Source: Flavobacterium sp. N502540
Lineage (GTDB): Bacteria > Bacteroidota > Bacteroidia > Flavobacteriales > Flavobacteriaceae
DNA: 64,000 nucleotides
Assembly (NCBI RefSeq): GCF_025947365.1
Contig: NZ_CP110012.1
Location: forward strand, 1,798,001 to 1,862,000
Reading direction: 5' to 3'
Each line of letters starts with the position of its first letter. Position 1 is the first letter of the stretch. Under the pieces are notes generated by a model that had not been told where the DNA came from, did no database searches, and worked only from the letters and a program-made list of their open reading frames with translations. Both the position numbers and the translations under genes were made by a program. Positions 29,978 through 46,686 of this stretch are shown here, one piece after another.

Positions 29978-32900
29978 TTACTCTACAATAATTTTTTTAG
30001 CTGAAGCTGCATCTTTATTTATTAAGTATATGTAATAAACTCCTTTTGGTAAACCGGATAAATCGATTGTATTATTGAGATCACTTGAATTTAATGTAAA
30101 TGATTTCACAAGCTGGCCCAGACTATTATAAAGAGTTGCTTTTTCTAAACTTGCATTTTGAATGTTTAGGTCGCCCTTTGTTGGATTTGGATAGATTGTT
30201 ACTTTTTCAAAATTGTTGGTATCAATACCTAATGTTTTACAAGTGTTAGAATAAGTGGCACTTTTTTCTTTAATGTTTGCCCAGTTGGCATTTGAATAAT
30301 CGGCATCATCCACTTGTATACAGCTTAGTGTTTTATTTCCTAAGAAGCTGGTGTATATGGCGGTAGCAGCATTTTTACCGGATTTAGACGGCAATACGAA
30401 ATTTTTATTGTTACCATTTTGGACATTCAGTGAAGTTAACGGGTTAAATTCAAGGAAAACAAGTTCTAAAAGGGGATTATGTGATAAATCTAAAGATGTT
30501 AATTTATTCCAGCTTAAACTTATTATTTTTAAAAGCGGGTTGTTGCTAAGGTCTAAAGATGCTAATTGGTTACTGCTAAAGTATAAGTTTTCCAGTTTTT
30601 TATTAGAGGAAACGTCTAATTTTGAAATTGTAGTAAAATTGCAACTTAACGTTTCAAGATTAGGTTGATTTGATATATTTAATGTGGTTAAATTATCTTG
30701 ACCACAAGAGAGAGATCTTAGTTGAGTATTTGAAGATATATCTAGATCATTTAGAAGATTTCTATCACAGGTTAAAAAATGAAGTTCCTTGTTTTGAGAT
30801 AAATCAATTGTTGAAACCTGGTTTTCGCTAAAGGTTAAACTAAGTAACTTTTTGTTTTTGGTAACGTCTAAGCTCGTCAATTTGTTTTCAAATAAATCTA
30901 AACCAAGTAATGCTTCGTTATTTTTGATATTTATATTGCTTATTGTATTGTAATTACAATTTAAAGAAGTTAATGCAATGAAATCTTCTATTCCCGAAAT
31001 GTCGCTAATGTTAGAATTAGAAATGTCTAAAGAGATAACTTTGTTTACACTTGCGGTTGCAACTTTACCATTTTTGCCGTCTTTGTCAATTTCCAGAGCA
31101 ATTAACTTATCTTCAAAATTAGAGTCCGGAATTAGGGTGTATCTGGTACAGTCTACATTGTAGTTTGCAGCCGTATCTTTGAAAGTACTCCAATTCGTAT
31201 TGGCATAAGCATCGTCATCAACCTGAATGCAATTTAGATTAGGATTGTTCTTAAAATTAGAGTTTACATCAAAATTTATATTATTCCCGTTCTTTAGATT
31301 TAAACTTTCTAAAGAATTATTGGTGCAATTAAGAAGGGTTAAAGCTTTATTTTGAGAAACATCTAAAAGAGACAATAGATTTCCGGAACAATTTAGAGAG
31401 TTTAAACTGGTGAAACCTTTAATTCCGGTTAAGTTTTTTATAGTGCTTGAAGCAACGTCTAAAGAAGCTATATTTTCAATACTGCTGTTTAAAACTGTAC
31501 CGTTTTTACCGTCTTTGTCAATGTTTAATGCAATTAACTTATCTTCAAAAGCGGGATCTGGAATTGCCGTAACCTGAGAGCAATCTACAGTTGAGTACGA
31601 TGCAGAAACATCTTTAAAACTTCCCCATTTTTCATTTGAATAAAGAGCATTGTCTACTAAGATGCATGTTAGTAAAGGGTTTTCAGTAAAATTAATAGCA
31701 TTGTAAGTAATTTGCATAGAGCGGTTGTTTCCATTTTTTAAATTTATTGTGGTCAATAATTTATTTTCAGGACATTTTAAAGATGTTAAAGATCGGTTTT
31801 TAGAAAGATCTAAACTTGTTAACAGGTTTGAAGCGCACCATAATGCAGATAGATTTTTATTGTTGGATGTATCAATATTGGTTAGTTTGTTTGAATCAAC
31901 GCTTAGAAGTCTCAAATTAACATTTTGCGAAAGGTCGAGATTTGTTATTTGATTGTAAGCAAGTGTTAAATATAGTAGAGTAAGGTTTTTGGATGTATTT
32001 AATGTTGTTAAATTATTGAAACCTGCTTCTAGGGATAATAATTGCAAATTTTGAGAGATGTCAAGACTGGTTATGTTGTTGGACATACAGCTTAATGACG
32101 TTAAAGATTTAAAATCCTGAATTCCGGTTAGGTCGCTAATATTACTATAGTAAAGATCTATTTCTGTGATAGTGGAAATTTTTGAAGTTAGGACTTTTCC
32201 GTCTGGAGCTCCCGAGTCGATTCCTAATGCTATTAGTTTTTTCTCAAAATTAATATCCGGAATTAAGGTGTATGATCCAGGAGCGATACAAGGGGTCGAG
32301 GAAAAGGATGTCGTTGGGTCTTTTTTGGTTGACCAATTTGTATTTGCAGCTGCAACATCACTAACCTGAATACAAGTTAATTTTGGATTCGATGTGAAAG
32401 AGATTTGATTGCTAAGTAAGGATGTATTGTTAGTGAGATTTAAACTTGTCAATAGATTCTCTTGTAAATATAAAGTAGTTAGTCCCGGATTATTGGAAAC
32501 GTCTAATGTTTCGAACTTATTTTGACGAAGGTCCAGACTGCGCAAAGCTTTATTTTGAGACAGATCTATCGTTGTTAATAGACTGTTTGCTGCCGTGAAA
32601 GACTCAAGAGCTTTGTTTTTGGTCAGATCAGGACTTTTTGCTAAATTGTTTCCGGAGACGGACAAATAAGTAAGTTTTAAATTTTGAGATACGTCAAGAT
32701 CTGTTATTTTATTTTGATTAATAGTAAGTGTTTCCAGAGCTTTATTAGCGGTTAAATCAATATTTGAAATTTGATTTGAGCTCACATTTAATTGAATTAA
32801 TGAAAGGTTTTTAGAAACATCTATAGTGGTTAGACTATTTCCTGCAATAAAAAATTTCTCTAATGATAAGTTTTTAGTGATATCAATTGTTGTCAGTTTA

Positions 32901-33772
32901 TTATAAGGACAATAGAGCAATTTTAAGGCTAAGTTTTGTGATACGTCTAAGTCTGTTAGCTGATTTCCGGAGCAGTATAATGTGGTTAGCTTTGTATTTT
33001 TAGTAACGTTTAATTTTGTCAATTTACCTGTTACTCCTCCATTAGGGTCGGAAGCTCCAGAACAATACAAGGTTTCTAAGTTATAAAAATCTTCAAGTCC
33101 TGTTAAGTCATAAACTATTGTGGTGGCAAGGTCTAAAATTTTAACTTTTATAATATTGGCTGTTAATACCTTTCCATCGGCAGTTCCGGAGTCAATTCCT
33201 AATGCGATTAACCTGTTTTCAAAATTCACGTCAGGTATTAAAGTGTATGGAGAAGGAACATCAGCAACATCTACAACAGAAATGTTATCGACTAAAATTT
33301 CAGAGTTCAGTGTTCCTGTGGTCCAGATATCTATTTCTATGTTTTCGCTTACGGTTGGGGTATACTCAAATTCGATTTTTCTCCATTCTGAGCTTGAAAA
33401 CACTGCATCTGTTTTTTTAATAATCTCAGCTTTAAAAGTGCCTGGTTTATGATATAAACTAAAATCAAGAGCAGAAAATGTACCGGAAACTAATTTGTGG
33501 TACATGGTTATACGGTACGTTTTATTTGCTGTTACCGGAAAAAATTCGCTATTAATATAGTTAAATGTACCGCTGGAAATCTTCATATTGGTACTCGAGG
33601 AACCTTTTTGAGCTGTTGTACTTTGAGAAATAAATCCACTAAAATAGCGATACCAGTTATCGGGTTGTGATGAGGAAGACCAGGTTTCGAAGTCACCATT
33701 TGGGACTAAATTAGTCTGGGCATAAATTGAAAAATTTGCTAGTAACAGCAATAAAAGTAGTTTTATTTTCAT
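29978..33772 (-). CDS. Secreted LRR protein A with T9SS type A sorting domain
   Basis: The 1264-aa precursor has a signal peptide (MKIKLLLLLLLANFSIYA). A carbohydrate-binding-like jelly roll follows (about 22-170, LVPNGDFETWSSSSQPDNW, then TYRITMYHKLVSG). Next come several blocks of 21-22-residue leucine-rich repeats (pattern LxxLxCSxNxLTxLDxSxN), each opened by a header like YTLIPDVNFENRLIALGI and closed by CIQVDDxxYxNxNW. The end is a T9SS type A domain (about 1190-1264, VTIYPNPTKGDLNIQNASLE). The T9SS carries such proteins across the outer membrane and anchors or releases them. Binding partners are unknown. Its promoter carries the shared palindrome, and the gene is a tandem paralogue of the next one. 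Confidence 0.88.
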   Translation of the reverse strand: MKIKLLLLLLLANFSIYAQTNLVPNGDFETWSSSSQPDNWYRYFSGFISQSTTAQKGSSSTNMKISSGTFNYINSEFFPVTANKTYRITMYHKLVSGTFSALDFSLYHKPGTFKAEIIKKTDAVFSSSEWRKIEFEYTPTVSENIEIDIWTTGTLNSEILVDNISVVDVADVPSPYTLIPDVNFENRLIALGIDSGTADGKVLTANIIKVKILDLATTIVYDLTGLEDFYNLETLYCSGASDPNGGVTGKLTKLNVTKNTKLTTLYCSGNQLTDLDVSQNLALKLLYCPYNKLTTIDITKNLSLEKFFIAGNSLTTIDVSKNLSLIQLNVSSNQISNIDLTANKALETLTINQNKITDLDVSQNLKLTYLSVSGNNLAKSPDLTKNKALESFTAANSLLTTIDLSQNKALRSLDLRQNKFETLDVSNNPGLTTLYLQENLLTSLNLTNNTSLLSNQISFTSNPKLTCIQVSDVAAANTNWSTKKDPTTSFSSTPCIAPGSYTLIPDINFEKKLIALGIDSGAPDGKVLTSKISTITEIDLYYSNISDLTGIQDFKSLTSLSCMSNNITSLDISQNLQLLSLEAGFNNLTTLNTSKNLTLLYLTLAYNQITNLDLSQNVNLRLLSVDSNKLTNIDTSNNKNLSALWCASNLLTSLDLSKNRSLTSLKCPENKLLTTINLKNGNNRSMQITYNAINFTENPLLTCILVDNALYSNEKWGSFKDVSASYSTVDCSQVTAIPDPAFEDKLIALNIDKDGKNGTVLNSSIENIASLDVASSTIKNLTGIKGFTSLNSLNCSGNLLSLLDVSQNKALTLLNCTNNSLESLNLKNGNNINFDVNSNFKNNPNLNCIQVDDDAYANTNWSTFKDTAANYNVDCTRYTLIPDSNFEDKLIALEIDKDGKNGKVATASVNKVISLDISNSNISDISGIEDFIALTSLNCNYNTISNINIKNNEALLGLDLFENKLTSLDVTKNKKLLSLTFSENQVSTIDLSQNKELHFLTCDRNLLNDLDISSNTQLRSLSCGQDNLTTLNISNQPNLETLSCNFTTISKLDVSSNKKLENLYFSSNQLASLDLSNNPLLKIISLSWNKLTSLDLSHNPLLELVFLEFNPLTSLNVQNGNNKNFVLPSKSGKNAATAIYTSFLGNKTLSCIQVDDADYSNANWANIKEKSATYSNTCKTLGIDTNNFEKVTIYPNPTKGDLNIQNASLEKATLYNSLGQLVKSFTLNSSDLNNTIDLSGLPKGVYYIYLINKDAASAKKIIVE

Positions 33773-33837
33773 AGGTAAGTGATTAGTTGCTACAAGTCTA
33801 CGAATTGCTATTTGAAATTCCTTACGGGAAGCCGTAA
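33168..33837. repeat. 670-bp near-identical block, copy 1 (promoter + N-terminus of LRR protein A)
   Basis: Aligns without gaps to 36141-36810 (constant offset 2973). I counted roughly 17 to 20 differences by eye, so about 97% identity. It covers the palindromic promoter, signal peptide, jelly-roll domain and the first LRR header. The remaining LRR parts of the two genes are clearly less similar. Confidence 0.8.
33793..33837 (-). promoter_or_regulatory. Shared LRR-family promoter: palindrome plus TAnnCTTG box (gene A)
   Basis: Read on the minus strand: TTACG-GCTTCC-CGTAA (33822-33837), 21 bases, then TAGACTTG (33793-33800), and the start codon 20 bases later. The same layout and spacing occurs at three other places in the window. 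The -33 position falls just downstream of the palindrome, so the bound factor would touch RNA polymerase. Confidence 0.7.
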
Positions 33838-33873
33838 CGAGCCGAATTTAATTTTGGGGTAATTAAGACATGA

Positions 33874-33907
33874 AAAAATCCCATTCGCCGCAGCGAATGG
33901 GATTTTT
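33874..33907. terminator. Terminator of LRR gene B (AATCCCATTCG hairpin)
   Basis: AAAAATCCCATTCG and CGAATGGGATTTTT pair around a 6-base loop (CCGCAG). The stem is the same as that at 42223-42256 apart from the loop, showing that terminators were duplicated with the genes. Confidence 0.8.
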
Positions 33908-33925
33908 GGGATTAACAAATTATAA

Positions 33926-36745
33926 TTACTCTACAATAATTTTTTTAACGGAAGCTGTATCTTTATTTATTAAGTACACATAATAAACACCTTTTGTAAG
34001 ACCTGATAAATCGATAGTATTATCTGTAGTATTTGAGTTTAGTGTAAATGATTTTACCAGTTGCCCTAATGTGTTATAAACAGTTACTTTTTCTAAAGTT
34101 GCATTTTGAATGTTTACTTCGCCTTTGGTTGGATTTGGATAGATCGTTACTTTGTCAAAAACATTGGTCACAACATCTAATGTTTTACAAGAGTTAGAAT
34201 AAGTAGCATTTTTTTCCTTAATATTTGACCAGTTAGCATTTGAATAATCGGCATCATCTACCTGTATACAATTTAGCGTTTTGTTTCCTAAAAAGCTAGT
34301 GTATATGGCCGTAGCGGCATTTTTTCCGGTTTTAGACGGCAACACTAAATTTTTATTGTTGCCATTTTGAATATTCAGAGAAGTTAGTGGGTTAAATTCA
34401 AGGAAAACAAGTTCTAAAAGGGGATTATGTGATAAATCTAGTAATGTCAACTGATTCCAGGCAAGATTTAATCTTTTTAAACGAGGATTATTGCTAAGGT
34501 CTAAGGTGGTTAATTGAGCATTATCAAAATATAAGTCTTCTAATTTTGGATTAGAAGAAACATCTAGTTTTGAAATTTTAGTATAGGTGCAGTTTAATTG
34601 CAAAAGATTAGGTTGATTTGATACATCCAATGTGGTTAGATTATTATTACCACAATAAATGGATTCTAGTTCAGTATTTGCTGATAAATCAATGCTAGTT
34701 AACTGATTTCGATCCGCCGTTATGGAATAAATTTTTTTATTTTGCGATAAATCAATGGTTGAAATTTGATTCATACTAAACATTAAATTAAAGAGTTCTT
34801 TGTTTGCAGTGACATCCAGAGCTTTTAGTTTATTGTCGTGCAGTGCTAATTTTATAAGTGATTTGTTCTGACTTACATTAATCGACTGTATATTGTTATA
34901 GTTAAGATCTAAGTAGGTCAATGACGTGAAATCTTCTATACCTTTAACGTCACTAATGTTAGAATTAGAAAGGTCTAAGAAGGTTACTTTATTGATACTT
35001 GCGGTTGTAACTTTACCGTTTTTACCGTCTTTGTCAATTTCCAGCGCAATTAATTTATCTTCAAAATTTGAATCCGGAATTAGGGTGTATATAGTACAGT
35101 CTAAATTGTAGTTAGCAGTCGTATCTTTGAGAGCGATCCAATTCGTATTGGCATAAACATCGTCGTCAACCTGAATGCAATTTAAATTAGGGTTGTTCTT
35201 AAAGTTAGAGTTTAAATCAAACTTTGTATTATTTCCATTTTTTAGGTCTAAACTTTCCAAAGAATTATTGCTACAATTAAGAAGGGTTAAAGCTTTATTT
35301 TGAGAAAGATCTAAAAGAGACAATAGATTCCCGGAACAATCTAGAGCGTTTAATTTTTTAAAACTTTCAATTCCGGTTAAGTCTTTTATAGTACTTGAAG
35401 AAACATCTAAAGAAGTTAAATTTTCAATACTGCTGTTTAAAACCGTTCCGTTTTTACCGTCTTTGTCAATATCTAATGCAATTAATTTGTCTTCAAATAC
35501 GGGATCCGGAATTGCTGTAATTTGAGAGCAGTCTACAGTAGAGTAAGATGCTGAAGTTTCTTTAAAGTCTTTCCACATTTTATTGGAATAAAGAGCATCG
35601 TCGACTATGATACAAGTTAGTAATGGTGTTTTTGTAAAATTAGTAGCATTGTAAGTAATTTGCATATAGCGGTTGTTTCCATTTTTTATATTTATTGTGG
35701 TCAATAATTTATTTTCAGAGCAATTTAAAGATGATAGAGATGGATTTTTAGAAAGATCTAGGCTAGTTAACAGGTTTGAAGAGCACCATAATGAAGATAA
35801 AAGCTTATTGTTTGTAAAATCAATACTAGTTAATTGGTTAGAACCACAGTTTAGGAGACGTAAATTAACATTTAGAGAAAGATCAAGACTTGTTATTTGA
35901 TTATAATTAAGTGACAGGTATTCTAAAGCAAGGTTTTTTGAAGTGTCTAGCGTGATTAAATTGTTGTAACCTGCAAGTAAAAAGTATAAGGCCTGGTTTT
36001 TAGAGATGTCAAGATTCGTTATCTTGTTAGACATACAATTTAGATAAGTTAAGGCCTTAAAATCCTGAATTCCGGTCAAGTCTGTAATATTACTATTGTT
36101 AAGTTCCAGTTTTGTAATGTTGGAAATTTTTGAGGTTAGGACCTTTCCATCGGCAGTTCCGGAGTCAATTCCTAATGCGATTAACTTGTTTTCAAAATTC
36201 ACGTCAGGTATTAGGGTATATGGTGAAGGAACATCAGCAATATCTACAACAGAAATGTTATCGACTAAAATTTCAGAGTTCAGCGTTCCTGTGGTCCAGA
36301 TATCTATTTCTATGTTTTCGCTTACGGTTGGGGTGTACTCAAATTCGATTTTTCTCCATTCTGAGCTTGAAAACACGGCATCTGTTTTTTTAAGAATCTC
36401 AGCTTTAAAAGCACCTGGTTTATGATATAAACTGAAATCAAGAGCAGAAAATGTACCGGAAACTAATTTGTGGTACATGGTTATACGGTACGTTTTATTT
36501 GCTGTTACCGGAAAAAATTCGCTATTAATATAGTTAAATGTACCGCTGGAAATCTTCATATTGGTACTCGAGGAACCTTTTTGAGATATTGTACTTTGAG
36601 AAATAAATCCACTAAAATAGCGATACCAGTTATCGGGTTGTGATGAGGAAGACCAGGTTTCGAAGTCACCATTTGGGATTAAATTAGTCTGGGCATAAAT
36701 TGAAAAATTTGCTAGTAACAGCAATAAAAGTAGTTTTATTTTCAT
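33926..36745 (-). CDS. Secreted LRR protein B with T9SS type A sorting domain
   Basis: The 939-aa precursor is a shorter sister of protein A. It has a virtually identical signal peptide and jelly-roll domain (residues 1-170), then three header-LRR blocks (YTLIPD/AIPDPVFEDKLIALDI) each ending in CIQVDD or CIIVDD with a tryptophan, and a T9SS type A domain (VTIYPNPTKGEVNIQNATLE). Each repeat contributes an LDxSxN loop. The near-identity to protein A ends soon after the first header, and similarity rises again near the C-terminus (a 52-base exact match 30441-30492 / 34389-34440). Function is probably surface adhesion or ligand binding, which is inferred. Confidence 0.88.
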   Translation of the reverse strand: MKIKLLLLLLLANFSIYAQTNLIPNGDFETWSSSSQPDNWYRYFSGFISQSTISQKGSSSTNMKISSGTFNYINSEFFPVTANKTYRITMYHKLVSGTFSALDFSLYHKPGAFKAEILKKTDAVFSSSEWRKIEFEYTPTVSENIEIDIWTTGTLNSEILVDNISVVDIADVPSPYTLIPDVNFENKLIALGIDSGTADGKVLTSKISNITKLELNNSNITDLTGIQDFKALTYLNCMSNKITNLDISKNQALYFLLAGYNNLITLDTSKNLALEYLSLNYNQITSLDLSLNVNLRLLNCGSNQLTSIDFTNNKLLSSLWCSSNLLTSLDLSKNPSLSSLNCSENKLLTTINIKNGNNRYMQITYNATNFTKTPLLTCIIVDDALYSNKMWKDFKETSASYSTVDCSQITAIPDPVFEDKLIALDIDKDGKNGTVLNSSIENLTSLDVSSSTIKDLTGIESFKKLNALDCSGNLLSLLDLSQNKALTLLNCSNNSLESLDLKNGNNTKFDLNSNFKNNPNLNCIQVDDDVYANTNWIALKDTTANYNLDCTIYTLIPDSNFEDKLIALEIDKDGKNGKVTTASINKVTFLDLSNSNISDVKGIEDFTSLTYLDLNYNNIQSINVSQNKSLIKLALHDNKLKALDVTANKELFNLMFSMNQISTIDLSQNKKIYSITADRNQLTSIDLSANTELESIYCGNNNLTTLDVSNQPNLLQLNCTYTKISKLDVSSNPKLEDLYFDNAQLTTLDLSNNPRLKRLNLAWNQLTLLDLSHNPLLELVFLEFNPLTSLNIQNGNNKNLVLPSKTGKNAATAIYTSFLGNKTLNCIQVDDADYSNANWSNIKEKNATYSNSCKTLDVVTNVFDKVTIYPNPTKGEVNIQNATLEKVTVYNTLGQLVKSFTLNSNTTDNTIDLSGLTKGVYYVYLINKDTASVKKIIVE

Positions 36746-36810
36746 AGGTAAGTGATTAGTTGCTACAAGTCTACGAATTGCTATTTGAAATTCCTTACGG
36801 GAAGACGTAA
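36141..36810. repeat. 670-bp near-identical block, copy 2 (promoter + N-terminus of LRR protein B)
   Basis: Partner of 33168-33837. The boundaries are at the LRR header (ACCTTTCCATCGG in both) on one side and just past the palindrome on the other, where the sequences diverge abruptly. Confidence 0.8.
36766..36810 (-). promoter_or_regulatory. Shared LRR-family promoter: palindrome plus TAnnCTTG box (gene B)
   Basis: On the minus strand TTACG-TCTTCC-CGTAA (36795-36810), 21 bases, then TAGACTTG (36766-36773), with the start codon 20 bases further at 36745. The best palindrome match of the set. Confidence 0.7.
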
Positions 36811-36850
36811 TGGATATGATTATAATTCGGAGTTTATTATAAGAAGCATA

Positions 36851-36886
36851 AAAAATCCTGTTTTCAGTATATCGAAAACAGGATTT
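36851..36886. terminator. Terminator after the FnIII lipoprotein
   Basis: AAAAATCCTGTTTTC and GAAAACAGGATTTTT pair with a small loop; it ends the two-gene unit of LRR protein C and the lipoprotein. Confidence 0.8.
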
Positions 36887-36918
36887 TTTTGGTTTAACTA
36901 ATTGTAATTATTAAGGTT

Positions 36919-37608
36919 CTAGTTGGTCTTGAATTTCCAGATTTGACCAACAGTTTCCCCTCCTTTATTGTCTTTTACAACCACTTTCCAGAAGTATTCT
37001 TTTGAAGTGGTAAGCGTTACATCAAATGAAGTTGCACTAGTGTTTTCAGCAACTTTTGCTGTGGGTGGGTTCGTCGTTCCAAAATATACATCATATTTAA
37101 GAACATCTGCTGCATCAACATCTGTCGCATTCCATTTTAAAATAGCCGTTGTGGTGTTCAAAACAGAGTTTAGGACAGGCTGTATTAATTCCGGAGAAAA
37201 AGGCAAATGATTTACTACTGCATCGCCACTGGTGTAGAGTTTAAAAGTAGACGAATAAGTACTGGCCAGCCCTTTGCTATCAGTCGCTTTTACTCTCCAA
37301 TAATAGGCAGTGTTTTTCTCCAATGCTATTGAAGTGGTAGTAGTAGTGACTTCCGATGATTTTACAATTTGCGCAAACGTATTTTCTTTTGCTACCTGAA
37401 TTTGATAGGTTATAGCGTCTTTATTTGAATCTGTAGAAAGATCCCATTGAAAAGAAACCGTATTGTCTACACATAATTTATTATCAACCGGAGCTTTTAA
37501 TGCAGGTACAGTTGGTGCCTCATTGGCAGGTTCTGCAGGTCCTGAATCATCGCTGCCACAAGCTGCAAATAAAAGACTAATGATCGTGAGGGATATGAAA
37601 TTCTTCAT
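36919..37608 (-). CDS. Lipoprotein with two fibronectin type III domains, paired with LRR protein C
   Basis: The 229-aa precursor has a lipoprotein signal (MKNFISLTIISLLFAAC, Cys17) followed by two fibronectin type III-like domains (about 35-125 and 137-229), recognisable by YYWRVKATDSKG and YFWKVVVKDNKG strands and the Pro-rich linker. It starts 2 bases after the stop of the 1503-aa LRR gene, so it is co-translated with it. It could be a membrane anchor or partner for the secreted LRR protein; this is inferred. No catalytic motif. Confidence 0.8.
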   Translation of the reverse strand: MKNFISLTIISLLFAACGSDDSGPAEPANEAPTVPALKAPVDNKLCVDNTVSFQWDLSTDSNKDAITYQIQVAKENTFAQIVKSSEVTTTTTSIALEKNTAYYWRVKATDSKGLASTYSSTFKLYTSGDAVVNHLPFSPELIQPVLNSVLNTTTAILKWNATDVDAADVLKYDVYFGTTNPPTAKVAENTSATSFDVTLTTSKEYFWKVVVKDNKGGETVGQIWKFKTN

Positions 37609-37610
37609 CT

Positions 37611-40600
37611 TTATTTTTTTATAATTTTAATGTATTCCGGAGTCTCCAAATAGATTTTGGCAGCATAAATTCCTGACGGTTGGTTGTCAAGATTCAATAG
37701 TGCTTTTCCATTTTCAATAACATAGTTTTTGGTTGAAACTAGCTGACCGGAGAAGTTGTATAATTCTATTTGAACTTCATTTTTAGCACCCGGAATTTCT
37801 ATTTCGAAACCTCCCGAAGTTGGGTTTGGATAAGCCGATAAGATTTGTGATTCGAAATCTGAAACAGAAACTTTTTTAGCAAAAACACCTTCACAAGCTT
37901 TTGCAGTCGCCACTTCTACTAAGGCATTTTTAGCAACATCCACAGAGAAAGCCGCATCATCGGTCTTGAATTGTTCTGTTCCGTTCACAAAAACGGTAAA
38001 CGGAGCGGTTCCTTCCATAATTTCAACGTTAACCGTTTTAGCAGTTACGCTTGATTTTCCGGTAATAGTAGCGCCTTTTGCAATGGTAACCGCAAAGTTT
38101 TGTTCGAAAATAACATCCGGAATAGTGATCTTAACTTTGTAGTTTCCGGGTGCCAGAGCGCTAACTTTTAAGCTGTTATTGGTAAAAGTATAAGGCTTGT
38201 CGTTTATAGTCGCAGTGTAAGCAAATGTTGCTTTTCCAACAATGCTTATTTCTCCATTATTTTCCCCAAGACAGGATTCGCTTTTCGTTTGAATGGCGAA
38301 ATTGTCTGCGGGTAAAGTAAATTCAGGAGTACAGTCTGTATTAAAAGTTGCAGTGGTATCTTTTCTGTTGGACCAGTTGGTATTAGAAAAGGCAGCATCA
38401 TCAACCTGAATACAAGTTAGATTTGTGTTACTCAAAAAACCAGTGTTGTTAAGGTTTAAATTAATATTGTTTCCGTTCTTTACGTTTAGATAGGTTAGTT
38501 TATTACTAGAACAGGTTAGATTTTTCAGAACTGTATTTTTAGAAAGATCAAGACTTGTTAATTGATTGCCATCACAGTAAAAAAGGTTTAAAGCCTTGTT
38601 TTCAGAAAGATCTATTGTCTTTAATTGATTTTCATAAGCATATAGTTCTGTTAAAGATTTATTTTTAGAAAGATCAAGAGCGGTTAGTTTATTGTAGCTT
38701 ACCTGCACAACTTTCAAACTATTAGCTTCAGGAAGGTTAATAGAGCTTAGCTGATTTTCACGACAATAAACAGAGATTAAAGTGATATTTTGAGAAAGAT
38801 CTAGAGTTGTTAGATTATTTTTATACGCAAATAAAGAAACTAAACTTTTATTTTGAGAAAGATCTAGAGTTGTTATTTGATTATTATCACATTGCAAAGA
38901 TTTTAAACTTAAATTTTTTATAACATCAAGAGCCGTTAATTGGTTTGAGCCACAAATAAGAGTATATAATTCAATATTTTCAGAAACATCAAGAGTTGTT
39001 AAATTATTATTGGCCGTACTAATGTTTGTTAATTTTTTATTTTGACTGACATCTAATGCGGTTAATTCGTTTTGGTGAACAGATAAATTTGTCAATAAGA
39101 TGTTTGCCCTTATGTTTATGTTTTTCAGCTTATTTTCGCTTGCATATAATGTAGTTAACTTGGTATTGGAAGAAAGGTCTAATGTTGTTAGTTGATTTTG
39201 ACTCACTTTCAAAAACGTTAATTCTTTAAAAGCTTCAATTCCCGTTAAATTAGTAATTGAGGAATTACTAAGGTCTAAGCTTTTTACAGCAGCAATAGCC
39301 TCGGTTAAGACTTTTCCATCAGGAATTCCAGTGTCTAGTTTATCGGCAATTAATTTCTTCTCAAAATTCACATCCGGAATCAAAGTATAAAGTGTTTTTA
39401 CAGGGCATGGGCTAGAAGAGAAAGTTGCTGTGGCATCTTTTTTCGTGGCCCAATTTGCATTCGAGTAATTCACGTCATCCACCTGAATACAGCTTAAGTT
39501 AGGGTTTTGGGCTAAACTAAAATTATATATTAAGGTGTTTTTTCCATTTTTAAGATTTGCGCTGGTCAAAGCATTAGTATCAGCCATTATATTGCTTAAT
39601 TTTAGATTTTTTGAAACGTCTAATTTTTCAATCTGATTATTGGAACAATATAAACCAATCAATTCTTTATTTTTTGAAACATCTAATGAAGTCAAAGCAT
39701 TATAGGGTAAAGACAAGAAGGTTAGTTTTGTGTTGTGTTGAAGATCAATAGCTTTTAGGTTGTTGCCGTACATGCTCAAACTTGATAATTCTGCATTTTT
39801 AGAAAGGTCAATTACGGATATCTTATTATGAGTAACCTCCAGATCTGTTAAAGATTTAAAATCCTGAATTCCGGTTAAATCAGAAATAGAGCTTTGTGAG
39901 ATGTTTAAAGAGGTTACTTTAGAAATACTTTCGGTTTTTACTTTTCCATTTTTCCCATCTCTGTCAATATTCAAAGCGATTAATTTATCTTCAAAATTGG
40001 GATCCGGAATAAGCGTATAAACATTGCAGTCTAAATTAAAGTGGGTAAAAGCATCTTTAGTTACAGCCCATTTAGCAGCAGCGGTAAGATCTGAAACCTG
40101 AATACAGGTCAAAGCAGCATTGTTAGCGGTATTTAAAGTGTTTATCGCAGCATTTTTTGAAACATCTAATTTCTGCAATACATTGTTAGAAACGTTTAGG
40201 TTGGTTAAGGCTGTGAAACCTTCAATACCGGTTAAATCAGAAATGGAACTGTTTGAAAGATCTAAAGCACTAATAGTGCTAATACTCGAATTTAAAACAG
40301 CTCCATTTTTTCCGTCTTTATCGATGTTAAGAGCAATTAGTTTGTCTTCAAATTTTGGATCTGTAATAATAGTTGAAAGGCTGCAATCCAATGAAGTAAA
40401 ATAAGTGCCCTCATTTTTTAGTTCAGACCAGTTCGTTCTGGCATAATCAATATTATCAACCTGAATACAAGTTAAATCTTTATTGATTTTAAAAGATGAT
40501 TTATAGATTTCAATATAATTACCCGCTTGATATATTTTATGGGTTTGGAGGAAATTAGAATTGTTTCCGTTTTTTAAATTCAGACTCTTTAAATTGTTAG

Positions 40601-42122
40601 AAGCACAGTTTATAAAAGTTAAGGCTTTATTGTTGCTGATATCCAAAGCGGTTATTTGATTGGAATCACAGATTAAGGTTTGTAATAGTGTATTGTTGCT
40701 GATATCTAATGTTGATAATTTATTGTTATTGACAAATAGGCCCTCCAATGCTGTATTCATCGATAAATTTAGGGATGTCAATTGGGTATTATTACATTTT
40801 AGTTGTCTTAAAGCTGTGTTTTTTCTTAAATCGAGAGTGGTTAAATTTCGTATGTGGGAGACATCTAAATCGGTTAGATTGATGTTTTGCGAAAGATTTA
40901 GCGTCGTAAAATTTTTTGTATAATTTTGACCACATCTTAAAAATTTTAAAGCTGTGTTTGAAGTCAGGTCTAAGGTTTCCAGTGCATTTCCGTAACCATC
41001 CAAATAAGTCAGATTGGTGTTCTTACTTACATTTAAAGTATTTAAATCGCGATTACTTTCAGTTTTTAAACTGGTTAAAGCGGTATTTTTGCTTAAATCT
41101 AAATTTGTGATATTATTACTACTGCAGTCTAAAGATGTTAAAGCTGTAAAGTCCTGAATTCCGGTTAGATTAGTAATAGAGCTTCTGGAGATGTTTAAGG
41201 TTGTTACTTTAGAAATGTTTTCTGTTTTCACCTTTCCATTTTTTCCATCGGTATCAATGCCAAGCGCAATAAGTTTGTTTTCGAAATTCACATCCGGAAT
41301 TAAGGTATATGCTGGACAATCTGTACTAAAACTTGCCGATGGGTCTTTTGCTTGAGACCAGATTTTTTTTGCATCTTCTATATTGTCCACCTGAATGCAT
41401 TCCAGATAGTTACCGTAAAAGGTTGCATAAGAAGCATTGGGATTAAATAAATAATTTGCTCCGTTCTGTATATTCAAATAGGTTAGCAAATTTGTATGGG
41501 CAGTCATTACAGCCAGTTTATTGTTTTTGCTCAGATCGAGACTTTTTAACAGATTGTTACTGCACCATAAAGACCTTAGCATTAGATTAGAGAACAGGTC
41601 TAGAATTTTGATACTATTACGACTGCAATTCAGACTTTCCAGCATTAACTGTTTGGAAACATCTATGCTTGTAAGCTGATTGTTGTGACAAAAAATAGTT
41701 TTAAGTGCTGTATTGCTAGAAAAATCAAGCATTGTTAATTTATTATTGTCACATTCCAGGCTAGTTAAGAGTGGATTATTAGCAAGATCCAATGTCGTTA
41801 ACAGATTATTGCTGCAATGTAAAGAGGCTAGTTTATTGTTTTTTGATAGGTTCAGTTTACTCAATCTATTGTTGTAACAAGACAAAGAGTTTAAGGCAAT
41901 AAAATCTTCAATCCCGGTAAGGTCTGTAATGGAGCAGTCGTTAACACCCAAATAAGTTACAACAGCCGCTTTAGAGGTCAGAACTCTCCCGTCAGGGGTT
42001 CCCGAATCAATTCCTAGTTCGATTAATTTATTTTCAAAATTCACATCAGGTATAACAGTGTACTGCTGCGCATGAATAGAAAAACTTACTAATAGTAGCA
42101 AGAAAAGTAGTTTTGTTCTCAT
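37611..42122 (-). CDS. Giant secreted LRR protein C with T9SS sorting domain
   Basis: The 1503-aa precursor has a signal peptide (MRTKLLFLLLLVSFSIHAQ), no jelly-roll domain, and five header-LRR blocks beginning YTVIPDVNFENKLIELGI, YTLIPDVNFENKLIALGI and so on. After the LRRs is a beta-sandwich tail (ESCLGENNGEISIVGKATF, then PGNYKVKITIPD) of the kind seen before flavobacterial sorting domains. The end is a T9SS domain (ILSAYPNPTSGGFEIEIPG). Surface or extracellular location is expected. Its promoter carries the same palindrome as A and B. A FnIII lipoprotein gene follows after 2 bases. Confidence 0.88.
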   Translation of the reverse strand: MRTKLLFLLLLVSFSIHAQQYTVIPDVNFENKLIELGIDSGTPDGRVLTSKAAVVTYLGVNDCSITDLTGIEDFIALNSLSCYNNRLSKLNLSKNNKLASLHCSNNLLTTLDLANNPLLTSLECDNNKLTMLDFSSNTALKTIFCHNNQLTSIDVSKQLMLESLNCSRNSIKILDLFSNLMLRSLWCSNNLLKSLDLSKNNKLAVMTAHTNLLTYLNIQNGANYLFNPNASYATFYGNYLECIQVDNIEDAKKIWSQAKDPSASFSTDCPAYTLIPDVNFENKLIALGIDTDGKNGKVKTENISKVTTLNISRSSITNLTGIQDFTALTSLDCSSNNITNLDLSKNTALTSLKTESNRDLNTLNVSKNTNLTYLDGYGNALETLDLTSNTALKFLRCGQNYTKNFTTLNLSQNINLTDLDVSHIRNLTTLDLRKNTALRQLKCNNTQLTSLNLSMNTALEGLFVNNNKLSTLDISNNTLLQTLICDSNQITALDISNNKALTFINCASNNLKSLNLKNGNNSNFLQTHKIYQAGNYIEIYKSSFKINKDLTCIQVDNIDYARTNWSELKNEGTYFTSLDCSLSTIITDPKFEDKLIALNIDKDGKNGAVLNSSISTISALDLSNSSISDLTGIEGFTALTNLNVSNNVLQKLDVSKNAAINTLNTANNAALTCIQVSDLTAAAKWAVTKDAFTHFNLDCNVYTLIPDPNFEDKLIALNIDRDGKNGKVKTESISKVTSLNISQSSISDLTGIQDFKSLTDLEVTHNKISVIDLSKNAELSSLSMYGNNLKAIDLQHNTKLTFLSLPYNALTSLDVSKNKELIGLYCSNNQIEKLDVSKNLKLSNIMADTNALTSANLKNGKNTLIYNFSLAQNPNLSCIQVDDVNYSNANWATKKDATATFSSSPCPVKTLYTLIPDVNFEKKLIADKLDTGIPDGKVLTEAIAAVKSLDLSNSSITNLTGIEAFKELTFLKVSQNQLTTLDLSSNTKLTTLYASENKLKNINIRANILLTNLSVHQNELTALDVSQNKKLTNISTANNNLTTLDVSENIELYTLICGSNQLTALDVIKNLSLKSLQCDNNQITTLDLSQNKSLVSLFAYKNNLTTLDLSQNITLISVYCRENQLSSINLPEANSLKVVQVSYNKLTALDLSKNKSLTELYAYENQLKTIDLSENKALNLFYCDGNQLTSLDLSKNTVLKNLTCSSNKLTYLNVKNGNNINLNLNNTGFLSNTNLTCIQVDDAAFSNTNWSNRKDTTATFNTDCTPEFTLPADNFAIQTKSESCLGENNGEISIVGKATFAYTATINDKPYTFTNNSLKVSALAPGNYKVKITIPDVIFEQNFAVTIAKGATITGKSSVTAKTVNVEIMEGTAPFTVFVNGTEQFKTDDAAFSVDVAKNALVEVATAKACEGVFAKKVSVSDFESQILSAYPNPTSGGFEIEIPGAKNEVQIELYNFSGQLVSTKNYVIENGKALLNLDNQPSGIYAAKIYLETPEYIKIIKK

Positions 42123-42147
42123 AGATTACATTTATGATTAGATCGCG

Positions 42148-42192
42148 CAAGTCTACAAAATTCGGTCGGTATTTCCTTACGGGAAGACGTAT
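42148..42192 (-). promoter_or_regulatory. Shared LRR-family promoter: palindrome plus TAnnCTTG box (gene C)
   Basis: On the minus strand the palindrome (42177-42192) is ATACG-TCTTCC-CGTAA, with one mismatch in the outer arm. After 21 bases comes TAGACTTG (42148-42155), and the start codon is 25 bases later. The surrounding sequence differs from genes A and B, so the conserved parts stand out. Confidence 0.7.
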
Positions 42193-42222
42193 TGGAAGAA
42201 CCTAACTTTCGAATAATTAAAA

Positions 42223-42256
42223 AAAAATCCCATTCGCTGCGGCGAATGGGATTTTT
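42223..42256. terminator. Terminator of the RCC1-LRR gene (AATCCCATTCG hairpin)
   Basis: AAAAATCCCATTCG and CGAATGGGATTTTT around CTGCGG; the same stem as at 33874-33907. Confidence 0.8.
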
Positions 42257-42274
42257 GAGTTTAAAGAAATTGTA

Positions 42275-45200
42275 TTATTTAAGGATAACTTTTTTCGCAG
42301 AAGCGGCACCCTGATGGATTAAATATACGTAATAAACTCCTTTCGGTAAATCGGATAAGCTTATTGTATGGTTTGTATTGCTTGAATTTAAAGTGAATGT
42401 TTTTATCAATTGTCCTAATGAATTATAAACTGTTGCTTTTTCTAAAGCCATATTATTAATGTTCACTTCACCGGTTGTTGGGTTTGGATACATTGTTATT
42501 TTATCAAAAACAGAATCTTCTATTCCTAAATTCTTACAGCTATTAGAATAAATTGTGTTGGGCTCCTTGATTCTGGACCAGTTAGCATTCGAATAGTTGG
42601 CATCATCAACTTGTATGCAACTAAGAGTTGTAAGTCCTAAAAAACTGGTATATAAAGAGGCCGTTTTTTTATCTGTTGGAGAAGCTAAAACAAAATTTCT
42701 ATTATTACCGTTTCGCAGGTTTAATGAAATTAATGGGTTATTTGCTATATAGATGATCTTAATATTTGCATTTTTAGAAAGGTCTAATGTTGTAAGTTGG
42801 TTTGTAGACGCATTTAGTGTTTCTAAGGCAAGATTCCTGCTCACATCTAATGTCTTCAATTGATTATTACTGCAATCTAAAAATGTTAGTGCTGTAAAAC
42901 TCTCGATACCTGACAGATCTTTAATAGTACTGTTTGAAAGATCTAAAGACGTAATTGAGCTTATGTTTGCAACAGAGATTTTTCCGTTTAGGCCGTCGGT
43001 ATCAATTCCTAAATCAATTAATTTTTGCTCAAAATTTTGATCTGGAATCTGAGCAAAACCGGAGGTACAGTTAGTGTTATAGCTTGCAGTTGCATCTTTT
43101 TTTGCTGCCCAGTTAAGATCAGAATAGGCTTTGTCGTCAACTTGAATACAGCTTAAATTTGGATTGTTTGTAATATTTAGAAATGGCAATTGAAAGTTAA
43201 TATTATTTCCATTTTTCAAATTTAGACTTGTTAATTGATTAGTGTGAGCATATAAACCCACTAAGGCTGTATTTATGCTTAGATCCAAAGTGGTTATTTG
43301 ATTTTTTGAAGCATTTACAAATTCTAGGGATTTATTTTTGCTTATATTCAAATCTTTTAATTGATTGGACTGACAATATAGCTCTGTTAGAGTAGTGAGT
43401 TTAGAAACATCCAGGTTGGTTATTTTGTTTTCACGACAATCCAGAAGAGTCAAAGCAGTGTTTTTGCTCACGTCTATAGAAGTTAATTGACTGGTATTAC
43501 AGCCCAAAAATGTTAATGCCGTATTGGTGCTCACATCCAAAGAAGTATATTGGTTTGAACCTGAATCTAATTTCAGTAACGCTGTATTTACCTTAACGTC
43601 TAAAGAGGTTAATCGGTTTGCGTAACAGCTTAAATTAAGTAAGGCGGTATTATTGCTTACATCTAAGGAAGTTATTTTATTGTTGTTACAGTCTAAAGTG
43701 ATCAAAGCTTTATTCTTGCTCACGTTCAATGCTGATAATGAATTTTGACCGCAATACAAATCAGTTAACGATACAAAGTTTTCAATTCCTGTTAAATCTG
43801 AAATATTACGATTGGTAACATTTAAGATCTTTACAGTGCTAATTTTATAGGTCAAAACTTTACCGTCGATGGCCCCGCTGTCAATTCCGCTATCAATTAA
43901 TTTTTGCTCAAAATTTGGGTCAGGAATTAAAGTGTAATTTTCTGCATTTTCAGGCATATATAAAGCTGAAATTTCTGCCGGTGTAAGTACACGATCCCAA
44001 ATGGCAACATCATCTATTGTACCTTTAAAGTCTTCTTTTATGTTATCTCCGGAAATTCTTTGTCCAATTCTAAAAATAGTGCCTACAGTATTTAAATTCA
44101 CCGCTTTTTGATCCACAAATTTGCCGTTTACATATATCGAAAGCTGAGTTCCATCATAGGTAACGGTGAAAAAATACCAATCGTTGTTAGCATAATCAAA
44201 GTTGTTTACATAAAAATCATCATTAGAAAAATCAGAACCAGTTATTGCTTGAAGATAACCTTTAGGATAAACAGAAAGAGACAATCTTTGCAATTTTGCT
44301 AAAGTCCCATAGTTAAAAATGGAGACTTCATATTTACTCGGATCAGGAAAAGCATCATTTGTTTTAAACCATCCTGAGATTGTTCTCGAAGAATTGTTTT
44401 TAGGAATATTTGGCAGAACAGCATCGATATAATTGTTTAAACCATCAAAGCTATAAGCTGCATTATTATTTCCAAATCTGTCTGATGTTAGTGTAGCGCC
44501 TGTTACGGTTCCATTTGATTCGTTTCCGCTAAGATCATTTGCATTTCCATTAAAAGGGAAATAAGCAATTAAACCATTTGTTGGTACTTGCCCGTCTATC
44601 AAAGAAGGAATAACGGTGACATCAACAACAGTTCTGGTACTTTCGCATCCATTAACCGTTTGAGAAACATAGTATTTGCCTGTTTGTAAAGGAGTAGATA
44701 AATTTAAGTCGCTCTGTATAATGGCACTGCTGTACCATTTAAGATTAGATCCCGTAGCCTGTAAGCTGGCAATAGTAGCACTGTTATTAAAAGACTGTGC
44801 ATTTGCAGTTGGAGCAGCTGTGATGGATGAGTTTATGGTTATCGTATAAGGATTGGTTGTACATCCTTTGGCATCTTTTGCAATAATCGAGTACGTGCCT
44901 GCTGATAAATTAGAGAATATATTTGAAGACTGGAAATTCATGGCAGGATACATAGCATACTGATAAGGTTGCGTTCCGCCAGCTGCCATAGTGGTTATAA
45001 TTCCGTCATTTTTAGTATTACAAACAGATGTCGCAGTTGCCTGAACAGTAATAGGAATTGGCTCTATAATCGTGATGGTTTTGGATACTGACGATGTAGC
45101 ATCACTTACCGTGCAGGTGTAATTTCCCGGATATAATCCTGTGATGGTTGAAGTTGTATATCCATTAGACCAAAGATATGAATATGGCATCGTACCACCA

Positions 45201-46393
45201 GAAACAGCTGTTACTGAGGCTGAACCATTAGCATAACCCGTGCACGTTATAGCCGTAAAAGATGTTGTAATTGTTAAAGACGATGGGCAATCTATTTTTG
45301 TTGGCACTTTTTTATCGATGGTTGTGTTGTCACCTAATGGTCCACTTTGGTTTCTGCCCCAAGTCCATATATCTCCACCTGTATCAACCGCAACAGTGTG
45401 GTAATTGCCTGCTAAAATTAAAGACCATTTGGTAGTTGTTCCTACTTGTATAGGGGTATTACTTCCTACAGTTGTACCATTGCCCAGTTTTCCAAATAAG
45501 TTGTCACCCCAAGCCCATAATGAATTATCGGTTTGGATGGCATAACTACTATTCCATCCGGCAGAAATACTTTTCCAATTTGTAGATACCCCAATTTGTG
45601 TTGGTAAATTTTTATTTATAGAGGTTCCATCTCCAACTCCGCCATTTATATTTTCACCCCAAACCCATAAAGTTCCATCAGTTTTTAGAGCGATTGAATG
45701 ACTGTATCCTGAAGAAATTGTTTTCCAGTCATTAGCAGTTCCTATTTTCGTTGGAATGGTTTTACTAATTAACGTACCATCTCCTAAAGCCCCCTTAGAA
45801 TTTTCTCCCCATGCCCATAAAGAACCGTCTTTTTTTAAGGCAATTGTATGTTCTCCACCTGCAGCTACAGTTTGCCAGTCAGTATCGGTTCCTATTTGTA
45901 TTGGAATATTTTTATTAACGGTGGTGCCATCGCCTAATTGTCCTGTAGAATTATATCCCCAAGCCCATAAAGTACCGTTGGTTTTTATTGCCATGGTATA
46001 ATTTCCTCCTGCAGATATACTTTGCCAATCTTTCGCAGATCCGATTTGTTGGGCAGCATTATAACCGGTAACAGTGCCCGGACCGTTTCCTATTTGCCCT
46101 AATGAACCATAACCCCAAGCCCATAAAGTTCCGTCTGATTTCATTGCAACGGTATGTCCCCATCCGGCGCTTACCGTTTTCCAGTCATTTGATGTTCCTA
46201 TTTTTACAGGAGCGTTTTTTTGAGTTGTGGTGCCATCTCCCAATTGACCATTACCATTATTACCCCATGCCCACATGGTGCCGTCTGGCTTTATTATAAT
46301 ATTATGGTTGTATCCGGCGGCTGTAGATTGGATACATTGTGCCTTAATGTGAAAGCAAGAAAGTATTAAAAATAAAAGTAAAATTTTTCTCAT
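42275..46393 (-). CDS. RCC1-propeller / LamG / LRR fusion protein D with T9SS sorting domain
   Basis: The 1372-aa precursor begins with a signal peptide ([20 protein letters not shown]). Residues about 20-370 are seven RCC1-like repeats (for example [20 protein letters not shown] and then WAWG), enough for a complete seven-bladed propeller. Next come an SprB-like repeat and an Ig-like region (about 375-600), a LamG/concanavalin-type domain (about 605-780, [19 protein letters not shown]), two LRR blocks with [18 protein letters not shown] headers, and a T9SS type A domain ([20 protein letters not shown]). The domain mix points to multivalent extracellular binding. Its nearest palindromic promoter is 278 bases upstream, beyond a leader-peptide remnant. 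Confidence 0.88.
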
Positions 46394-46581
46394 ACGATAA
46401 AAATTTGGTTATTTAATAGTGTGTTTTTTGGTTAGAATAGGTTTTATTGAGTGAGCCTTTAAGCTTGATTTGTAAGAGTAATAACAACAAAAAAATATAC
46501 CTTTTTTATTGTTATTTTAAAACCGGTTAAAAATGGTACCTCTGAATATTACCGATGGTTTGGTATACAGGGAGATACATT

Positions 46582-46614
46582 TTACAGAAGCAAAAAAAGT
46601 AGTTTTATTTTCAT
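46582..46614 (-). pseudogene. Remnant of a fourth LRR-family gene start (10 codons)
   Basis: Read leftward from the ATG at 46614 the codons give MKIKLLFLLL and then TAA. The other family members begin MKIKLLLLLLLANF or MRTKLLFLLLLVSF, at the same distance from the same promoter (28 bases from the TAnnCTTG box). The homology ends at the stop, so the body of a gene was lost, or the leader of the RCC1-LRR gene was created by rearrangement. Confidence 0.6.
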
Positions 46615-46641
46615 AAAAGTATGTTTTTGAGGTTTCTGACG

Positions 46642-46686
46642 CAAGGATAAGGTTTTTAGGCGAATTTTCCTTACGGAAAGACGTAA
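46642..46686 (-). promoter_or_regulatory. Shared LRR-family promoter: palindrome plus TAnnCTTG box (remnant)
   Basis: On the minus strand TTACG-TCTTTC-CGTAA (46671-46686), 21 bases, then TATCCTTG (46642-46649). It heads the remnant leader and may still drive the RCC1-LRR gene through a 280-base leader. The sequence between motifs is unrelated to copies A to C, which makes the preserved spacing informative. Confidence 0.65.

Follow-up and report, generated by a model that had tools for sequence, protein, structure and literature searches.

The LRR gene cluster and its four sites

The window, a stretch of 64,000 nucleotides from Flavobacterium sp. N502540 (contig NZ_CP110012.1, positions 1,798,001 to 1,862,000), carries a cluster of minus-strand genes for giant leucine-rich repeat (LRR) proteins with tails of the type IX secretion system (T9SS), together with four copies of a 45-base element of the layout TTACG-N6-CGTAA-GGAA-N17-TAnnCTTG. 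Judged from its sequence, this element is probably the operator-promoter of a two-component system, in which a dimer of the response regulator RR1 would occupy the dyad and activate the sigma-A polymerase.

All four sites lie on the minus strand. Site 1 (33793..33837) comprises the dyad TTACGG-CTTC-CCGTAA (33822-33837), GGAA (33818-33821), N17 and the box TAGACTTG (33793-33800). Site 2 (36766..36810) has the dyad TTACGT-CTTC-CCGTAA (36795-36810), GGAA (36791-36794), N17 and the same box (36766-36773), which recurs behind N17 in site 3 (42148..42192; box 42148-42155), with the dyad ATACGT-CTTC-CCGTAA (42177-42192) and GGAA (42173-42176). In site 4 (46642..46686) the dyad reads TTACGT-CTTT-CCGTAA (46671-46686), followed by GGAA (46667-46670), N17 and the box TATCCTTG (46642-46649). 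Sites 1, 2 and 4 have no mismatch to the layout and site 3 has one, ATACG in place of TTACG. The initial annotation had described the four sites and the altered arm of the third in the same way, and its claim of a constant distance is borne out, CGTAA and TAnnCTTG being separated by exactly 21 bases at every site. The window was searched with the composite TTACGNNNNYCCGTAAGGAA-N17-TANNYTTG, allowing up to three mismatches; these four sites were the only matches, as the annotation had also reported, and 100 dinucleotide shuffles gave none. The dyad alone is not unusual in the window (24 occurrences at up to two mismatches, 26.4 expected), so that the significance rests in the composite.

The spacer is identical between sites 1 and 2, reflecting a recent duplication. 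It is different at sites 3 and 4, and site 4 has a likely counterpart with a drifted spacer in a relative (G159:C11:170553-170597). As the initial annotation had argued, the conservation is not just that of a recent duplication: copies 3 and 4 have spacers of their own, and the spacer also varies from one relative to another.

The genes behind sites 1 and 2 both start 20 bases behind the box and encode LRR proteins of 1264 aa (29978..33772, minus strand; T9SS C-terminal sorting domain, with LRR_4 and Por_Secre_tail) and 939 aa (33926..36745, minus strand; T9SS tail), whose N-termini are nearly the same. Behind site 3, the ATG of a 1503-aa LRR protein with a T9SS tail (37611..42122, minus strand) follows the box by 25 bases; directly behind this gene, without a site of its own, lies the gene of a 229-aa fn3/SusE-like protein (36919..37608, minus strand), which is probably co-transcribed with it. 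Right behind site 4 stands a leader remnant of 10 codons, MKIKLLFLLL-stop (46582..46614, minus strand), with its ATG 27 bases behind the box, and the first long open reading frame (ORF) there, which begins at 46393 after a long leader, encodes a 1372-aa RCC1/SprB/LamG/LRR protein with a T9SS tail (42275..46393, minus strand). All these distances fall within the 20-28 bases first stated. An LRR leader remnant ahead of an RCC1-type gene suggests that the original LRR gene was replaced while the promoter stayed. RCC1-like genes stand behind the box in relatives as well, at +27 in L322 (5 mismatches), +78 in L116 and +112 in L120. A near-identical hairpin with a T-run (CCATTCGC...GCGAATGG-GATTTTTT) was seen just upstream of sites 1 and 3 (window positions 33871-33900 and 42221-42250); these are likely terminators that isolate the LRR genes.

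A response regulator gene next to a further site

The genome-wide and cross-genome search proposed with the first description of the motif places it beyond the window. Perfect copies of the 20-base core number four in the 5.41-Mb genome: three are window sites, and the last, at 624326, lies outside the window and has TATTTTTG at N17. This last site begins 17 bases behind the last sense codon, and 13 bases behind the stop codon, of the gene for RR1, a response regulator of 222 aa that is likewise encoded outside the window (G000:C1:623644-624309). A site at 3385441 combines a two-mismatch core with TAGTTTTG at N17, and another at 2492087, with one core mismatch and the shifted box TAACTTGC, precedes the gene of a 458-aa lipoprotein whose N-terminus resembles those of boxed lipoproteins in L049, L112 and L122. 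Several further two-mismatch matches to the core are located within ORFs of this genome and were set aside as chance occurrences.

The RR1 gene is preceded by two tandem genes for tetratricopeptide repeat (TPR) histidine kinases (L001:278-2134 and L042:3621-5345, at 620-624 kb). The motif ISKKLHDEL is intact in the first kinase; the second has ISKKLSDEL instead and, with Ser replacing His, may be a non-phosphorylatable partner. Behind RR1 follow a small membrane protein and an exonuclease/endonuclease/phosphatase-like protein, and similar pairs are found in many relatives.

At E<=0.01, 29 of 34 regulator family members match Response_reg, the first member scoring under the curated cut-off, and D10 and D59 are invariant in the family alignment, which thus contains a conserved phospho-acceptor Asp. 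The receiver part of the RR1 model matches solved receiver domains, and the C-terminal helices predicted at residues 158-168, 173-182, 190-203 and 209-218 would form a four-helix helix-turn-helix (HTH). Over its full length (residues 1-222) the predicted structure matches the RcsB-DNA complex 5w43, the identity of RR1 to the RcsB chains listed being about 16-22%. By this model, RR1 is a NarL/RcsB-type response regulator.

Co-occurrence of element and regulator in relatives

We counted the element, at up to two mismatches, and the regulator family, by profile at E<1e-60, in a sample of 199 genomes of the genus. The element is present in 85 of them, with 3 matches in all for the reversed control, and the regulator in 111; 84 genomes have both, 1 has the motif only, 27 the regulator only and 87 neither (Fisher p ~1e-30, a value that ignores kinship). 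The regulator is thus found in 84 of the 85 genomes with the motif, compared with 27 of the 114 others. As the profile includes members that resemble the paralogue RR2 (see below), the regulator in these counts is wider than RR1. The element matches listed number 150, from 69 of the 85 motif-positive genomes, and the regulator positions were likewise taken from the matches listed. Among these 150, 68 lie within 2.5 kb of a regulator gene, and all 68 are downstream of it on the same strand. We fetched 80 of the 82 listed sites away from the regulator (all except G048:C13:41576 and G036:C1:33398) and assigned 79 to a gene; the site string of the unassigned one, L099, is also in L052.

A broader draw of 247 Bacteroidota genomes gave the element (at most one mismatch) in 14 and the regulator in 24, and all 14 are within those 24. 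A scan of named species genomes yielded at least 120 stretches; the 80 stretches listed represent Flavobacterium, Chryseobacterium, Elizabethkingia, Epilithonimonas, Kaistella, Pedobacter, Sphingobacterium, Olivibacter, Lacinutrix and Galbibacter, and also Salegentibacter, Croceitalea, Hanstruepera, Aquimarina, Flexibacter and other Flavobacteriaceae, genera that we take to be all Bacteroidota. In these 120 loci there were 124 exact sites, 75 behind a regulator gene, 16 before LRR-type leaders (here and in the operator classes below, LRR sites are defined by the leader motif only) and 33 elsewhere; two of the 124 fall within an ORF longer than 150 aa on their own strand. A tighter adjacency rule, applied to 80 of the 120 loci, left 51 of 84 sites near the regulator.

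Promoter geometry

Exact matches to the dyad plus GGAA number 88 in the genus sample, whereas the reversed control has 1. They come from 51 genomes, every one of which has the regulator; in G015 a single dyad was counted twice, once per strand. When the TAnnYTTG box was sought from N6 to N32 behind them, 69 sites were found to have it, all 69 at N17 and one with a second, nested box at N9; the remaining 19 have no strict TAnnYTTG box within this range. Boxes of the TAnnTTTG type have been placed at -12 to -5 (PMC9723704; here and below, statements on cited papers refer to the accessible part of their text). If the box is the sigma-A -7 element at these positions, the dyad would span -49 to -34 relative to the predicted start, with its centre at -41.5. 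Activators are known to bind dyads near -41.5 (class II), and here the dyad stands at a fixed N21 from the box.

The standard sigma-A element TTTG at -33 is absent, the region reading TAAGGAA (matrix positions 14-20, 150 sites). This -33 TTTG is a feature of strong promoters (PMC2483708, PMC7366714); it is described as not essential but needed for full activity (PMC2483708, citing earlier work), and could not be identified globally in Flavobacterium johnsoniae (PMC7366714). The missing -33 TTTG and the fixed position of the dyad together point to the layout of an activator that would replace the upstream promoter element. Dyad arm positions 2-5 and 13-16 are conserved at 0.99-1.00 over the 150 sites, the search pattern having demanded arms and GGAA alike. 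The sites keep the 8-base box, which the pattern required, and not the SM5 form of Flavobacterium psychrophilum, TAnnTTGY, which is one base shorter than TAnnTTTG; the related site 2492087, which reads TAACTTGC, would fit SM5.

Operator classes and the paralogue RR2

In all 68 sites adjacent to the regulator, the sixth dyad position is G and the fifth box position T (TAnnTTTG), and GGAA is intact in 34 of them. At sites before LRR-type leaders the same G is present in 7 of 23 and the same T in 1 of 23. The LRR promoters therefore look like a weaker subclass of the same element, and the changed arm base and TAnnCTTG of most LRR sites would imply that they need a higher level of active RR1.

The genome also encodes a paralogous regulator, RR2 (361896-362561), which is 53% identical to RR1. 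Its operator, TTATGG-TTTT-CCGTAA-AATACTGG with the box TACTTTTG at the same N21, lies 77 bases behind the last sense codon of RR2, and this version was seen at two places behind the gene, at 77 bases and at 3.6 kb (L144, L320; G000:C1:361896-366231). In the genus sample it has 43 matches in 33 of the 199 genomes, with none for the reversed control, and 39 of the 43 follow a regulator gene in the same orientation. G162, G183 and G185 have one regulator each, which shares 76-86% identity with RR2 and 53-54% with RR1, and in these genomes the RR2 version is present and the RR1 version absent; the same pattern of sites holds for G060, whose regulator is RR2-like by score only. RR2, with its distinguishable operator, serves as an internal control. 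Since RR2-type sites keep the geometry without GGAA, GGAA is not a fixed part of it, which speaks against an extracytoplasmic function (ECF) -35 element.

Proposed mechanism and alternatives

In the mechanism that we propose, the neighbouring TPR histidine kinases would phosphorylate RR1, and an RR1 dimer would bind the 16-bp dyad TTACGG-N4-CCGTAA. With the dyad centred at -41.5, RR1 on its site would take up the place at which sigma region 4 would contact the missing -33 element, and it would activate sigma-A RNA polymerase at weak promoters in a class II arrangement; we infer activation rather than repression. The regulator-adjacent sites have an unbroken inner arm and a consensus box, and the LRR sites should need more active RR1. 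The initial annotation had suggested a dedicated factor, either a response regulator or an alternative sigma. The first is favoured by the co-occurrence (84/85 in the genus, 14/14 in the phylum draw) and by the 75 of 124 exact sites behind the regulator; the second is disfavoured by T at box position 5 in 68/68 sites, by the lack of a conserved CGT and by the RR2-type geometry without GGAA.

Several observations weigh against this mechanism. Twenty-seven regulator-positive genomes have no site at up to two mismatches; in the 18 of them that were read behind the regulator we found 6 exact dyads, 4 RR2 versions and 8 regions with nothing by regular expression, one of which (G130) shows TTATGG-N4-CCGTAA by eye. 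Conversely, G056 has a two-mismatch site and no regulator match, the only such motif genome in the genus sample; the site (L104, G056:C18:26692-26736) is 84 bases upstream of a large ORF of the secreted type. The co-occurrence ignores phylogeny and partly reflects the sites beside the regulator gene, and in smaller genomes the regulator is just 55-69% identical to RR1, so that the name is loose there. Pfam GerE (PF00196) is not among the 7 families matched at E<=0.01 by the 34 regulator members, a profile miss that does not exclude the fold, and DUF5932 is matched by 15 of the 34, with a score for the first member that falls short of its cut-off. As paralogues, the LRR genes do not provide independent instances of the features that they share.

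A further point against activation is that the dyad overlaps the expected binding positions of sigma region 4. RR1 or another protein could thus be a repressor that blocks the -33 region from the dyad, with the LRR genes expressed on its release. We consider this unlikely. Promoters with no TTTG at -33 look too weak to need repression, although this argument is weakened by PMC2483708 and PMC7366714; the LRR subclass has a still weaker box, and the one-base rigidity between dyad and box, in 69/69 sites, fits contact with the polymerase better than blockage.

Less probable still is an ECF-type sigma factor that reads GGAA as its -35 and the box region as its -10 element, the dyad being incidental or the site of a second factor. 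GGAA does stand 17 bases before the box, near the ECF spacing, and sites 1 and 2 read CGTAGACTTG, with CGT, by chance or otherwise, directly before the TA of the box, as an ECF promoter might look. Flavobacterium psychrophilum encodes 7 ECF sigma factors, and an ECF-like motif (SM6, with a CGT box) is found there upstream of T9SS genes (PMC9723704). An SM6-type promoter would have the CGT box in its -10 region; over the 150 sites, however, no CGT is conserved at positions 35-37, just before the box, nor across 35-45. All 68 regulator-adjacent sites have the sigma-A form TAnnTTTG, GGAA is intact in only half of them (34) while the dyad arms hardly vary, RR2-type sites dispense with GGAA, and in this genome a two-component pair, not a sigma gene, adjoins the site. 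A mere copying of the LRR cluster together with its promoter, through duplication or gene conversion and without a regulator, would suit the shared spacer of sites 1 and 2, the near-identical N-termini of their proteins and the paralogy of the LRR genes. It is highly improbable and already contradicted by non-LRR sites: the element also stands before unrelated genes in other genera, and dyad, GGAA and box are kept where the spacers have changed, as in copies 3 and 4 and among relatives.

Relation to known systems

FimS carries TPRs, and FimR is of the NarL type. By its description, FimS/FimR of Porphyromonas gingivalis is likewise a Bacteroidota two-component system that activates surface-protein genes, and FimR binds the mfa1 promoter region directly (PMC1974823). 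Its targets are fimbriae, whereas here they are T9SS LRR proteins, and the accessible text names no dyad for FimR, the terms 'inverted repeat' and 'binding site' being absent from it (PMC1974823). With RcsB and the NarL-FixJ group, the RR1 family would share, on the predicted model, a receiver and a C-terminal four-helix HTH; unlike theirs, the RR1 HTH is not matched by GerE at E<=0.01, and it would work with the Bacteroidota form of the sigma-A promoter. PorX is not known to be a NarL-type protein. PorXY-SigP is also a case of two-component control linked to T9SS, but acts on genes of the secretion machine through an ECF sigma factor (PMC4800418), in contrast to the cargo genes with a dyad and a sigma-A-like box found here. 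Motifs SM1-3 of F. psychrophilum are TAnnTTTG variants like the box of this element, and in the accessible text no dyad is described for SM1-SM6 ('palindrom' is absent; PMC9723704).

Our literature search, which covered sources other than subscription journals and supplements, found no description of this operator among the papers listed and no paper on DUF5932; the matches listed included primers and STAT3 oligonucleotides. To our knowledge, few regulator-operator pairs are known in Bacteroidota outside gut and mouth genera. The present analysis points to a specific regulator, defines a 45-bp operator to the single base, lists targets for many species and gives the DUF5932-like C-terminal region a function to test. 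A likely master switch for the four giant LRR genes can be named, a regulator that probably binds the element. What turns on T9SS-secreted LRR proteins becomes testable; in the fish pathogen F. psychrophilum, 17 tandem LRR genes are induced by fish plasma (PMC9723704).

Genes behind the element

In relatives, the commonest position of the element is before the gene next to the regulator, and it also precedes LRR giants, lipoproteins and small secreted proteins, as well as HsdR-N, GmrSD, caspase, PLD, KTSC, GYF_2 and DUF1508 proteins in one or two cases each. We scanned 85 of the 108 distinct downstream genes with Pfam and PADLOC, after dropping 6 of more than 700 aa (five with LRR-type leaders) and 17 look-alikes. 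The families are scattered, with at most two members each among the 25 listed, and so no single function is enriched. Of the dedicated surface-protein regulon first suggested, the shared promoter factor is thus retained and the restriction to LRR or surface proteins is given up, the element preceding many non-LRR genes in relatives.

Eight frames of this genome carry LRR_4. The four of the window cluster have the box; of the remaining four, three were read upstream and contain no match to the element. In L317 (G000:C1, ~178 kb) we noticed the RR2-like dyad TTATGGTAAACCGTAA upstream of another LRR gene, with no clear box at the usual distance. A DNA-pattern search for the leader MKTKLLL, intended as an unbiased comparison of LRR genes and box, matched many unrelated signal peptides and was not used. 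Most of the fetched loci were chosen because of the box, and 35 of the 36 LRR-type genes in them, three of which are genes of the window, have it at up to three mismatches; of four array neighbours not fetched for a box of their own, three have it at three mismatches, with GGAA altered and the dyad intact or one base off, and the fourth (L265) has none, at 7 mismatches.

A more speculative and rather doubtful possibility is a modular regulon, in which targets would travel as cassettes with their own 45-bp operator-promoter and pile up behind the regulator or settle at a distance. Large Flavobacterium genomes would have recruited it for T9SS LRR arrays and small secreted proteins and, in single cases, for proteins of the HsdR-N, GmrSD, caspase and PLD types, and paralogous regulators would each have an operator code of their own (TTACGG...GGAA versus TTATGG...AATACTGG). 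If so, one signal would switch the surface coat and possibly defence-like functions. Several boxes within ~1 kb, each before a different small gene (GYF-like in L039 and KTSC-like in L214, by look), were seen in L039, L201 and L214; these multi-box loci look like portable promoter-gene cassettes. In L201 and L214 there are two boxes within 1 kb each, and they adjoin the regulator gene.

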